A DNA stretch of 56,558 nt from Nitrospirota bacterium (lineage in GTDB: Bacteria; Nitrospirota; Nitrospiria; SBBL01; JAADHI01), in contig JAJDBU010000024.1 of assembly GCA_029261195.1 (NCBI GenBank), positions 1-56,558 on the forward strand. The letters are read 5' to 3'. Under the pieces are notes generated by a model. The model was not told where the DNA came from and made no database searches. It saw only the letters and a program-made list of their open reading frames with translations. A program made the position numbers and the translations under genes. This document shows positions 51,031-55,799 of this stretch, piece after piece; the first letter of the stretch is position 1, and each line of letters starts with the position of its first letter.

Positions 51031-51798
51031 ATGGATCTGGCATCAATTATAGGCGTTGTGGTTGCATTTGGTCTTGTCCTTTTCGGGATCTTGAGTGGCG
51101 GCAGCCTTTTGATTTTTTGGGATGCTGCTTCCGCTGCGATCGTAATCGGCGGAACGATTGGAGTAGTGCTCATTAATTATCCGCTTGGCGACGTGCTGAG
51201 TGTCTTCAAGGTGGTTAAGAATGTTTTCCTCCATAAGATGCAATCAGCCAAAATCCTCATTACCGACCTGGTCGAAATGGCGACTGATGTTCGGAAAGGC
51301 GGCATTCTCTCCATCGAAGGAAAGGTTAAGGAGATTCAAGATCCTTTTTTTGCAAAAGGCCTCCAGATGCTGGTTGACGGCATTGAGGTCGGCTCGATCA
51401 AAGGGGTCCTGGAGAAAGAAATCGACTATGTTTCAGAACGGCACAGCCTCGGTGCGGAAATTTTTGCGACTTTAGCCACTTTTGCACCGGCAATGGGCAT
51501 GATTGGAACTTTGATCGGTTTGGTTCAAATGCTTCAGAGTCTGGACGATCCGAGCTCCATCGGTCCGGCAATGGCCATCGCCCTCATCACAACCTTCTAT
51601 GGCGCCATGTTAGCCAACATGGTTTTTATGCCGATGTCGGGGAAATTAAAAAAAAGAAACAAGGAAGAGATGTTGGTGATGGAGTTGATTCTGGAAGGAG
51701 TGATTTCGATTGCCGGTGGAGAGAACCCTAAAATCATGGAACAGAAACTCCAGGTCTTCCTGTCACCAAAAGATCGCGCAGCGGAAGAAGCGAAGTAG
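51031..51798 (+). CDS. motA: flagellar stator subunit MotA
   Basis: MotA forms the ring of the ion-driven stator. The 255-residue protein has four membrane helices (two near the N-terminus, two at about 150-200) and the MotA pattern (IGVVVAFGLVLFGILSGG, FATLATFAPAMGMIGTLIGLVQML). GGAGAA precedes the ATG. Two MotB-like genes follow. The sequence resembles the MotP/PomA branch, but I cannot tell proton from sodium use by eye. Confidence 0.94.
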   Translation: MDLASIIGVVVAFGLVLFGILSGGSLLIFWDAASAAIVIGGTIGVVLINYPLGDVLSVFKVVKNVFLHKMQSAKILITDLVEMATDVRKGGILSIEGKVKEIQDPFFAKGLQMLVDGIEVGSIKGVLEKEIDYVSERHSLGAEIFATLATFAPAMGMIGTLIGLVQMLQSLDDPSSIGPAMAIALITTFYGAMLANMVFMPMSGKLKKRNKEEMLVMELILEGVISIAGGENPKIMEQKLQVFLSPKDRAAEEAK

Positions 51799-51827: not shown

Positions 51828-52526
51828 ATGGCAAGGAAACCGGAACTAGAAGCCGTCGGCGATCCGATGGCGGTGATGATGGTCTCGCTAAACCTGATTC
51901 TACTGATCTTTTTTGTTTACCTTAATTCTATGGGTGTTCAAGATGAGGAAAGGGTTAAAAAGGCTTTGGGTTCTCTTGCGGGCCAATTCGGCATGCTTCC
52001 TTCCGGCCTTCAAATTACGGCAGGGGATAAACTATTGCTGCCCGGACCTTCAGTGGTCTCTCCGAAGGAAGTGAAAGTCGACTTCGGAAAGGAATTTAGA
52101 AAAATTATTGATTCGGGTCTTCTGTTGCCCGATGAGGTCAACGTAGTAAAAAATGGTCGAGAATTGATCATCAATTTGGCAGACAAGGTCCTTTTTTCGT
52201 CGGGTAAAGCCGAGCTGCTTCCCAGGGCGGAAAAGGTATTGGCCCACATTTCCAACAATATCCGCTTACAGGGTAAGCCGGTGACCATTGAAGGACATAC
52301 GGATGATATTCCAATTTCAACGGCCCGCTATCCTTCTAATTGGGAACTCTCAGCAGCAAGATCGACATCGGTATTAAGGTTTTTTGTTGAAAAAGGTAAA
52401 GTGAAGCCTGGACTGTTGACTGCAGTGGGGTATGCGGGGGAAAGACCACTTATTCCAAATCATGATCGGGTCAATCGGGCTAGAAATCGTCGTGTTCGCA
52501 TTGTGATCGATCTTGGAAGCAGATAA
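51828..52526 (+). CDS. MotB-like protein without the ion-binding aspartate
   Basis: The 232-residue protein has a short cytoplasmic start ending GDP, one membrane helix (about 15-33) and an OmpA-like peptidoglycan-binding domain (about 100-228, with IEGHTDDIPI and RARNRRVRI). MotB needs an Asp in the membrane helix to carry ions. Here that position aligns with Asn or Ser (MAVMMVSLNLILLIFFVYL), and the helix holds no acidic residue. It lies between motA and the normal motB, touching the latter (TAA then ATG). It may be a regulatory or mixed-stator subunit. This alignment is by eye. Confidence 0.75.
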   Translation: MARKPELEAVGDPMAVMMVSLNLILLIFFVYLNSMGVQDEERVKKALGSLAGQFGMLPSGLQITAGDKLLLPGPSVVSPKEVKVDFGKEFRKIIDSGLLLPDEVNVVKNGRELIINLADKVLFSSGKAELLPRAEKVLAHISNNIRLQGKPVTIEGHTDDIPISTARYPSNWELSAARSTSVLRFFVEKGKVKPGLLTAVGYAGERPLIPNHDRVNRARNRRVRIVIDLGSR

Positions 52527-53204
52527 ATGGGACGAAAAAAGCCTGAACCCGAAGGAGACCCTAATGCATGGATGGCGACATTCGCAGATCTCCTCAGTCT
52601 GCTGGTAACGTTTTTTGTGCTTCTTTTTTCTATGAATTCAATGGATAAGGGGAAAATTGAGGAAGCCCTGGGTTATTTCCGTCGTGGAGGACTCGGTGTG
52701 CTTTTGGAAGGTGGGCGGATGCCGATGATCCAAAGCGATCATCTGGACCTAAAGGATCCGGGCGCAAAGCCGATTTCTCCAGCCGATATTAACAAACTGC
52801 TTAAAAGAGAAAGCCTCAAGCATCGGGTTGGCGTCAGTTCGGAAGATCGAGGTGGTGTTTTGACGGTTTCCAGTGGTATTCCTTTCCACTCGGGGACAAA
52901 AATACGGGCAGAAGGTTTAGCGGTCCTGGAGAATGTGATCCCCATTGTACAGAAAGGGGATTACGGCATACAGGTGGTAGGCCATACCGACAATCGAGAA
53001 CTGCTTTCATCGAATTACGAAACACGCCGGGATCTTTCCATTGCACGGGCGGGATATATTGCCCGTTACCTGATTAACAAGGGCCATATTGCACCACAGC
53101 GGATTTCCGTGGTCGGCTTCGGCGATACAAGACCCTTGAAGCCTAACCTGACAGAAAAAAACAGATCAGAAAATAGAAGAGTAGAACTGGTATTGACGGA
53201 CTAA
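52527..53204 (+). CDS. motB: flagellar stator subunit MotB
   Basis: The 225-residue protein shares the GDP start with its neighbour, but its membrane helix has the required Asp (WMATFADLLSLLVTFFVLLF). A plug/linker follows and then the OmpA-like peptidoglycan-binding domain with VVGHTDNRELLSSNYE and RSENRRVEL. It begins directly after the upstream stop codon. It pairs with MotA as the working stator. Confidence 0.93.
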   Translation: MGRKKPEPEGDPNAWMATFADLLSLLVTFFVLLFSMNSMDKGKIEEALGYFRRGGLGVLLEGGRMPMIQSDHLDLKDPGAKPISPADINKLLKRESLKHRVGVSSEDRGGVLTVSSGIPFHSGTKIRAEGLAVLENVIPIVQKGDYGIQVVGHTDNRELLSSNYETRRDLSIARAGYIARYLINKGHIAPQRISVVGFGDTRPLKPNLTEKNRSENRRVELVLTD

Positions 53205-53302: not shown

Positions 53303-54538
53303 ATGAATCAAGAAGAAATCTATCTCGGTCGTCAGCCGATCTTGGACCGACATAACACTATACTCGGCTATGAAATCCTGTTTCGTTCCGGTCACTCCCT
53401 CTGTGCCGATATCGACAATGTCAGTCAGGCTTCTATTTCTTCGATATTGAGTACCTTGAGTGATTTTGGATTGAAGAAAGTGGTTGGCAAGCGGCATACG
53501 GCGTTTTTTAATGTCAATGCGGAAATCTTACACAGTGAAATGGTCGAACTACTCCCGAAAGAACAGGTCGTGCTTGAACTACTTGAAACGATTAAAATTG
53601 ACGATGATCTTATCAATCGCTGTCGGGAACTCAAAACGTTGGGCTTCTCCCTTGCCCTGGATGATTTCATCTACAAACCTTCCTATGACCCCCTGCTCGA
53701 ATGGATTGATATTGTGAAGGTGGACTTATTGGTGATGACCCCGGCGCTTCTGGAGGAGACAATAGACAGCCTCCAAGGCTTCCCTTTGACCTTGCTAGCG
53801 GAAAAGGTTGAAGACCTTGATCAATTTGAACAGACACGTGCGCTCGGATTTAAAATGTTTCAGGGCTATTATTTCGCGCATCCCGTTGTGATTTCAGGGA
53901 AACGGGTCGATCCTGAATATATTACCGTGATGAAACTCATGAATCAGATCCTGCGCGATGCGGATCTCAAGGTGATTGAGCAGACCTTCAAAGAAAGTCC
54001 GTCTTTAATCTTTAACTTACTCCGCCTCCTTAATTCTGTTTCAAGCGGGATGAAACAAAAAATCAGTTCGGTAGGTCATGCCATCGTCCTTTTGGGTCGG
54101 AATCGCCTAAGCCGCTGGGCGCAGATTTTGTTGTTTACGCAGGGAAGCACACCGGGGCATCAAAACCCCCTGCTTGCGACCGCTGTGATGCGCGGACGCT
54201 TTATGGAACTCATGGTTGAGAAAGGGGCAATTGGCGGAACAAAATCAAGTGCGGATCTTGCCTTCATGACAGGCGTCTTTTCACTGATTGAGGCCCTTTT
54301 AATGCGACCCATTGCAGAAATCCTCAATCAATTGAGTCTGGTGGATGAGGTTTACCGGGCCTTGGTAGATGACCAGGGGGACTTGGCGGAACTCCTTCGT
54401 TTGGTCAAAAAAATAGAAAAATCAGATTACAGCGCCATCGATTTATTGGCAGATCGCTGTCAATTGAAGATGGGCAGCGTAATTGATGCAGAGCAGGAAG
54501 CAAGCGTCTGGGTACAAGGATTGATTCAGTCTTTGTAA
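53303..54538 (+). CDS. EAL-HDOD signalling protein 1 (YuxH-like)
   Basis: The 411-residue protein joins an EAL-like domain (1-200) and an HDOD domain (about 202-400). The EAL signature is EIL (E24), and LELLE (E92, E95), LALDDF (D120, D121), VKVDLL (K139), AEKVED and FQGYYF remain. Several metal/ligand positions survive, but the fold may be only partly active. The HDOD part lacks HD-hydrolase residues, as usual. It is a tandem paralogue of the next gene. Such proteins often regulate flagella or c-di-GMP responses. Confidence 0.88.
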   Translation: MNQEEIYLGRQPILDRHNTILGYEILFRSGHSLCADIDNVSQASISSILSTLSDFGLKKVVGKRHTAFFNVNAEILHSEMVELLPKEQVVLELLETIKIDDDLINRCRELKTLGFSLALDDFIYKPSYDPLLEWIDIVKVDLLVMTPALLEETIDSLQGFPLTLLAEKVEDLDQFEQTRALGFKMFQGYYFAHPVVISGKRVDPEYITVMKLMNQILRDADLKVIEQTFKESPSLIFNLLRLLNSVSSGMKQKISSVGHAIVLLGRNRLSRWAQILLFTQGSTPGHQNPLLATAVMRGRFMELMVEKGAIGGTKSSADLAFMTGVFSLIEALLMRPIAEILNQLSLVDEVYRALVDDQGDLAELLRLVKKIEKSDYSAIDLLADRCQLKMGSVIDAEQEASVWVQGLIQSL

Positions 54539-54557
54539 GAATAGAAAGGGTGAAACC

Positions 54558-55799
54558 GTGTCTGACACGACAGAGCGCATCTTTTTAGGGCGTCAACCGG
54601 TACTGGATCAAAACAGCCATATTGTCGGTTTTGAAATCCTGTTCCGTACCGAGCCTTCCCTGGAACCGACTCCGGGCGATGAGACTAGGGCTTCTGCCGG
54701 GGCCATCATGAACACTTTGAGCGATTTTGGTTTGAAGGAGGTCGTCGGAGAGCGGCATAAGGCTTTTTTTAAGGTCAATGCCGAAATCCTGATGAGTGAC
54801 ATGATTGAGTTATTGCCTCATGAACAGGTTGTGATTAATCTGAATGATGGCATTCTCATCGACAGCGCAATGGTCAATCGCTGTGAAGCGCTGAAAAAAA
54901 TCGGTTTTTCTCTGGCGCTTTCCGGCGCAGCTTGCAAGTCAGTCTATGAGCCGATTTTTGAAAGTATCGACATTGTTAAAATCGATCTGCAGGCCAATCA
55001 TCCTAATACCCTTAAGGCATCCGTTGCAGAGTTCAGGACTTTACCGATAAAATTACTGGCAGAAAAAGTGGAAAACATCTACCAGTTCGATCAGGCAAAA
55101 GCTCTGGGCATTGACATGTTTCAAGGGTATTATTTCGCTCAGCCTTCGGTGATCTCCGGTAAAAAAATCGATTCGGCAGGCATTACTGTGATGAAGCTGA
55201 TGAATCAGATGCTCGGGGATGTCGATCTGGCGGAGATTGAACAAACCTTTCGTCAAAGTCCTTCTCTAAGTTATAACTTGTTGAGACTCGTCAATTCAGT
55301 TTCAAGCGGGATGAGGGAGAAAATCACCTCCGTCCGTCATGCCATCGTTCTCCTGGGTCGGGCGCAATTGAAGCGTTGGGCTCAGGTACTCTTATTTACG
55401 CAGGATGGCACAGTTGCACATCAAAACCCTCTGCTGAACACTGCTGTCATGAGAGGTCGTTTTATGGAAGTTCTGGTCGAACGCGGGGCGCTTGACGGAT
55501 CGAAACAGCTTGCCGACTTAGCCTTTATGACGGGAATGCTCTCCTTAATTGATGTCTTGATGTTAAAACCCATGAAGGAAATACTTGAACAGCTCGGTCT
55601 GGCCAACAGGGTTTGCAAGGCGCTTTTGAGCCGTGAGGGGGATTTAGGAAAACTGCTTGCGATGACCGAGTTGTTGGAGCGAGGAGATTTTGTCGCGATT
55701 GCTCCTCTGGCAGAACACTGTCAGACCGATATGCTGCAAATCATGAACGCGGAACAGGACGCAACGGTCTGGACGAACAAACTGACCAAGGCATTTTAG
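54558..55799 (+). CDS. EAL-HDOD signalling protein 2, degenerate EAL
   Basis: This 413-residue paralogue of the gene before it shares the same domain order and many exact segments (GRQPVLDQ, STLSDFGLK-like, FQGYYFA, MKLMNQ, SVSSGM). The EAL half has lost more: LELLE became INLND and LALDDF became LALSGAA, so phosphodiesterase activity is unlikely. GTG is the start, with AAAGGG upstream. It is probably a c-di-GMP sensor or protein-interaction module. Confidence 0.87.
   Translation: MSDTTERIFLGRQPVLDQNSHIVGFEILFRTEPSLEPTPGDETRASAGAIMNTLSDFGLKEVVGERHKAFFKVNAEILMSDMIELLPHEQVVINLNDGILIDSAMVNRCEALKKIGFSLALSGAACKSVYEPIFESIDIVKIDLQANHPNTLKASVAEFRTLPIKLLAEKVENIYQFDQAKALGIDMFQGYYFAQPSVISGKKIDSAGITVMKLMNQMLGDVDLAEIEQTFRQSPSLSYNLLRLVNSVSSGMREKITSVRHAIVLLGRAQLKRWAQVLLFTQDGTVAHQNPLLNTAVMRGRFMEVLVERGALDGSKQLADLAFMTGMLSLIDVLMLKPMKEILEQLGLANRVCKALLSREGDLGKLLAMTELLERGDFVAIAPLAEHCQTDMLQIMNAEQDATVWTNKLTKAF

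Follow-up and report, generated by a model that had tools for sequence, protein, structure and literature searches.

What does a MotB-type protein do in a flagellar stator locus if it lacks the residue that binds the ion? The question is raised by a Nitrospirota locus in the window (the whole analyzed stretch of 56,558 nucleotides), in which one MotA is encoded together with two MotB-like proteins. The MotB aspartate has been described as an ion-binding site of universal conservation (PMC7787011), and in present models two MotB aspartates must work in alternation (PMC9389320, PMC9175137). The first MotB of this locus, denoted here as MotB', has no such residue. By its sequence, it is an intact MotB paralogue minus the ion-binding Asp, inherited together with a MotA of its own and a MotB that has the Asp.

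Stator genes of the window

The initial annotation described one MotA and two MotB-like proteins. This description was borne out, as all three ORFs (Table 1) are in frame and carry Pfam domains. MotA matches Pfam MotA_ExbB (108 bits) as well as NCBIfam PomA, the latter at 288 bits, which is under the family cut-off of 341. It retains Arg88, Glu96, Pro153, Thr160, Thr187/Thr188 and Pro201. The second MotB scores well over the cut-offs of both MotB_plug (62 bits) and OmpA (53 bits). MotB' matches OmpA (59 bits, residues 122-221), with the GHTD and SNWELS..R motifs intact. Its match to MotB_plug (PF13677) is sub-threshold (19.5 bits, cut-off 24), partial, and starts past the Asp region; the same cut-off is passed by the acid-less relatives L101, L106, L119 and L112.

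Table 1. Stator genes of the window and the features mapped onto them
Feature	Coordinates	Strand	Evidence
motA (255 aa), PomA-type	51031..51798	+	Pfam and NCBIfam matches, alignment to solved MotA/PomA
motB', acid-less MotB paralogue (232 aa)	51828..52526	+	
MotB' transmembrane helix, residues 13-34; membrane core without acidic residue	51864..51929	+	AlphaFold model, charge check
MotB' Ser20 (TCG), at the ion-binding Asp position	51885..51887	+	Ungapped alignment
MotB' Asn22 (AAC), Asp position + 2 residues	51891..51893	+	Alignment
MotB' plug-like helix, residues 40-54	51945..51989	+	Model; PF13677 match to residues 24-54
MotB' OmpA-type peptidoglycan-binding domain, residues 104-228	52137..52511	+	Pfam, Foldseek, motif table
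motB (225 aa), partner with ion-binding Asp21	52527..53204	+	Pfam
MotB Asp21 (GAT), ion-binding residue	52587..52589	+	

The motB' gene lies directly downstream of motA, and MotB starts at the next base after the MotB' stop. The three genes stand last in an extended flagellar and chemotaxis cluster, which upstream of them codes for FlgD, FlgE, FliL, FliM, FliN, FliP, FliR, FlhB and FlhA. The cluster also encodes a flagellar-type sigma factor, followed by CheA, CheW, MCP, CheR, CheB, CheZ and PilZ; its SRP54-type GTPase and MinD-like ATPase are probably FlhF and FlhG, respectively. Immediately downstream of the stator genes are two tandem HDOD-EAL proteins (53303-55799). Several relatives have genes of matching length after the triad, and in L040 a similar protein follows.

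In the AlphaFold model of MotB' (mean pLDDT 70.7, 8 sequences, modest confidence for both helices), a single N-terminal helix (13-34) is followed by a second helix (40-54) at the expected place of the plug, a disordered linker and an OmpA fold. The top Foldseek match of this fold is B. subtilis MotS (9ljk, TMt 0.84).

The residue at the ion-binding position

In an ungapped alignment anchored by W and FF, MotB Asp21 pairs with MotB' Ser20, and Asn22 lies two residues on. The register with Ser20 at the Asp site was reproduced by the family profile aligned to a solved MotB (6ysf_A). Both anchors also agree in those divergent homologues that retain Trp, for example DWQTIFCSLSIILVAFF (L119), WQVVYSGFILIMLCFF (L106) and WMLTFCNLMLLMISFF (L109). 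Asp had initially been placed opposite Asn, or opposite Ser if no gap is used; the second option holds, and Asn is the less likely counterpart according to both the ungapped alignment and the 6ysf_A profile. At the position of Asn22, Asn is the commonest residue among Nitrospiria members.

The Asp site of 30 acid-less rows is occupied by a small neutral residue, which is Ser (15), Ala (10), Gly (4) or Asn (1). In the partner and ordinary MotBs it is Asp in 60 of 60 rows. The reported lack of an acidic residue in the first MotB helix extends to its homologues: counted from the site, neither Asp nor Glu occurs between offsets -3 and +15 in any of the 30 acid-less sequences. The Asp replacement goes beyond chance, being shared by 30 rows drawn from two phyla. 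One of the 30 rows, the G009 MotB' (L043:10366-11088), places a Lys within the core of its helix (AISLKLLVYF).

The aspartate, D(0), is not the only residue affected, as its loss is accompanied by that of T(-3) and T/S(+3). Thr(-3) and Thr/Ser(+3) are common to ordinary MotBs, and we take the flanking Thr to be ion ligands. Kept are L/F(+1), I/L(+4), L(+5), FF(+8,+9) and S(+14), and with them most hydrophobic packing positions.

Distribution of the MotA-MotB'-MotB triad

MotB' was found in 11 of 18 genomes in the order to which the window belongs, namely in each of the eight family members and in G014, G009 and G010. It is also present in G019, which belongs to another Nitrospiria family. The MotA-MotB' order was also found on L053, a contig filed as Deltaproteobacteria. 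Using a diverse MotB' profile, we searched 395 genomes sampled from the phylum of L053 and detected MotA-MotB'-MotB in about 22 of them; Desulfobacterota would fit as this second phylum. Most of the second-phylum matches outscore ordinary MotBs, and each was judged from its helix sequence. In the phylum scan, the divergent members G009 and G010 escaped a profile of the helix alone (A4, 60 aa), which hence undercounts, so full-length profiles (A1 and A7) were used. A full-length search with a single protein draws in all OmpA proteins, and its matches were judged by visual inspection of the helix. Both the gene order and the acid-less first MotB are shared by relatives in the order, by G019 and by members of the second phylum. 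An acid in the helix, as well as absence or frameshift of the gene in relatives, had been named as refuting outcomes; we looked for them and they did not occur.

A MotB ORF is located directly downstream of MotB' in every locus with a continuing contig, and such a downstream MotB was also seen at G413 and G689; the two genes are usually separated by at most about 35 bases, or overlap. In the second phylum, fliL usually comes next after the triad when the retrieved sequence is long enough to show it. In six genomes (G002, G004-G007 and G019, completeness 90-98%) we found no match to MotB_plug outside the triad. The window's own genome has a very divergent MotB-like/MotA-like pair (G000:C55:4483-6263, L046) in reversed order, outside the flagellar cluster. 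Having retained the Asp and being so divergent, this pair was set aside as a candidate second stator.

Some MotBs have unusual architectures. The Asp-bearing ones of the triads in G009 (L043:11051-12493) and G010 (L044:6020-7357) are 445-480 aa long, and their helix is flanked by two OmpA domains; by MotB topology the N-terminal one would be cytoplasmic, or else the topology would be unusual. G010 also codes for an 834-aa MotB (L044:8300-10804) with an insert of ~550 residues, rich in Ala/Glu/Lys/Gln, between the helix and the OmpA domain.

Descent and selection

To analyze descent, we built a tree of 93 MotB-type proteins using only the region after the helix. The 33 MotB' rows fall on it with two label changes. 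Holding MotB' as one clade improves the best tree found by 6 log units over the free one (p-AU 0.7). Because the one-clade tree scores better, a single origin of MotB' is favoured, although not proven. The MotAs of the triads are also set apart from canonical MotAs, the exception being a mislabelled row, the second MotA of G010.

The closest usable pair (G005/G007) yields an approximate dN/dS of 0.10 for MotB', with dS near saturation, and by this estimate the gene is under purifying selection. Within the window's family, the helix of MotB' is conserved at an identity of 0.87 and that of MotB at 0.89, and the corresponding values for the OmpA domain are 0.52 and 0.54. Wherever the contig permits, the MotB' frame is open over its full length. 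On the combined sequence record, the gene for the ion-blind MotB is ancient and has stayed intact in two or more bacterial lineages.

The initial annotation held that MotB' is not a pseudogene and that its OmpA domain is intact, and the full-length ORF, the OmpA score and the purifying selection agree with this. Decay of a duplicated gene commonly begins with loss of its catalytic residue, and MotB' might be a decaying or near-neutral duplicate. We regard this reading as hardly credible. It is refuted by the open, full-length frame, the dN/dS of about 0.1, the invariant helix and OmpA motifs and the age of the clade, which spans two phyla; the pseudogene reading was rejected likewise. A covalent read-through MotB'-MotB fold was also dropped, as the join would need to cross the membrane.

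MotB' copies that carry an aspartate

Two second-phylum MotB', those of G798 and G517, retain Asp. The G517 protein (L147:1438-2175) combines the periplasmic half of the acid-less clade with an Asp helix of the partner type, and is nested beside the acid-less L116. Its helix, WIVTYSDMVTLLLTFFV, resembles the one in the partner MotB of the same locus, WMVTYSDMVTLLLTFFV; 56 of the 78 bases match. This is likely to represent a natural helix swap between tandem genes, one that is too old for near-identity in DNA. In G798, MotB' (L127:1423-2214) still has Asp (TYCDLMTL), and its tree neighbour L109 has Asn at exactly that position. The G798 protein is possibly an intermediate, or else another regain.

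Peptidoglycan-binding motifs

The peptidoglycan-binding residues of MotB' are nearly invariant (D, R and N each in 32 of 33 rows). The partner MotBs are looser, with N in 25 of 31 and D in 29 of 31. Those of the L112/L116/L120/L144/L147 group have a shortened loop, and the window's own MotB has a degenerate one (52983-53060), with TRRDLS instead of SNWELS. These differences hint at a division of labour, in which MotB would handle the ion and MotB' would take on more of the anchoring.

A proposed one-site stator and its alternatives

We consider it on balance probable that MotB' is a dedicated ion-blind B subunit, which pairs with MotB in a MotA5-MotB-MotB' stator. The MotB' helix would lie beside the MotB helix inside the MotA pore and would be permanently neutral. 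Ion binding and release would be left to MotB alone, and the contribution of MotB' would be cell-wall anchoring. In the 5:2 model the two MotB sites alternate, hence the MotA ring moves by 36 degrees per ion (PMC9389320; PMC9175137). One neutral helix leaves one site and one ion per 72 degrees, so the ring would use about 5 ions per turn, not 10. We infer both the heterodimer and the halved ion stoichiometry. That there are natural asymmetric stators of this kind, with a MotA pentamer on a MotB-MotB' heterodimer, a single ion site and ~five ions per turn, is a tentative proposal, which we rate as a real possibility.

It might be argued that MotB' works outside the ion pore as a dedicated anchor or assembly factor, binding peptidoglycan and holding or recruiting MotA5-MotB2 around the motor. 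Its helix would then dock on the MotA exterior or on other motor parts, and its role would resemble that of MotX/MotY or periplasmic scaffold proteins. Such a role needs no ion site, and would agree with the near-perfect peptidoglycan-binding motif, looser in the partner MotBs, and with the second-phylum genes usually adjoining fliL, itself stator-associated. However, an external anchor has no need of a MotB-specific packing pattern, of a helix conserved at the level of MotB, or of the plug-like helix seen in the model. Nor would a mere membrane tether call for a helix as conserved as this. The G517 swap is difficult to account for with a helix docked at another site, and is expected if both helices fit the same pore. 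We therefore consider the anchor rather unlikely. The initial annotation left a choice between a mixed stator and an anchor or regulator; helix conservation, tight gene coupling, the lack of another MotB_plug in the six genomes and the G517 swap favour the mixed stator, a choice that we infer.

MotB' might also form a non-conducting MotA5-MotB'2, which would compete with MotA5-MotB2 for places at the motor as an inert spare, a brake or a torque-tuning stator. Having its own helix, predicted plug helix and peptidoglycan-binding domain, MotB' could form homodimers, and Asp-to-Asn MotB assembles at the B. burgdorferi motor as torque-less stators, although with lowered occupancy, about 7 of 16 (PMC6663468). 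Yet with the two motB genes coupled 1:1 and only one motA, working stators would be diluted constantly, and a pure inhibitor is difficult to reconcile with conservation across two phyla in genomes without another MotB locus. We find this reading improbable. The heterodimer itself faces several objections. Acid loss is not indispensable, as Asp is kept in the MotB' of G798 and G517. It must also be supposed that a stator with one site can work, Asp-to-Asn homodimers being non-motile. Finally, the two B subunits may form separate homodimers, and coupled genes need not yield a heterodimer.

Relation to known systems and significance

The triad resembles the canonical 5:2 stator (MotAB/PomAB) in its MotA residues, FADLL-motif MotB, plug and OmpA domains and place in a flagellar-chemotaxis cluster, but has an extra, conserved B subunit without the ion-binding residue. 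A single motA with two tandem motB genes is also found in the motA/motB1/motB2 operon of Aquifex aeolicus, which confirms the precedent cited for a two-MotB locus (PMC4525482). There, the MotB helices are 97% identical and the periplasmic parts 23% (Takekawa et al. 2015, PMC4525482), and either helix drives E. coli rotation in a chimera (PMC4525482). Thus, both Aquifex MotBs are ion-competent with near-identical helices, whereas the first MotB here has no ion site. The Myxococcus AglR-AglQ-AglS system likewise has one MotA homologue and two MotB-type partners, and heterodimers of AglQ/AglS are stated as unknown in a review (PMC9389320). Unlike in the triad, AglQ and AglS are both predicted to have the aspartate, and they belong to a gliding motor, not a flagellar stator. 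A neutral residue at the ion site is shared with Asp-to-Asn MotB homodimers (E. coli D32N and B. burgdorferi D24N), which are non-motile (PMC6663468), although the B. burgdorferi mutant still assembles into stators. Those are dead laboratory homodimers; here, a natural Asp-less subunit is kept beside an intact one. In the literature searched (open-licence papers), we found no description of a naturally conserved acid-less MotB paralogue. One MotA with two MotBs and Asp-less laboratory mutants are known; a natural, conserved Asp-less MotB beside an intact one appears, within that literature, to be new.

These results suggest that some flagellar motors use one ion site per stator, not two. A conserved natural Asp-less subunit makes it testable whether both MotB sites are needed for torque and whether the ion-per-turn stoichiometry is evolvable. 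In rotary ATPase rotors, duplicated c subunits minus a carboxylate alter the ion ratio. A one-site stator would parallel these rotors and, if true, would represent an evolved gear-ratio change in a 5:2 rotary motor.
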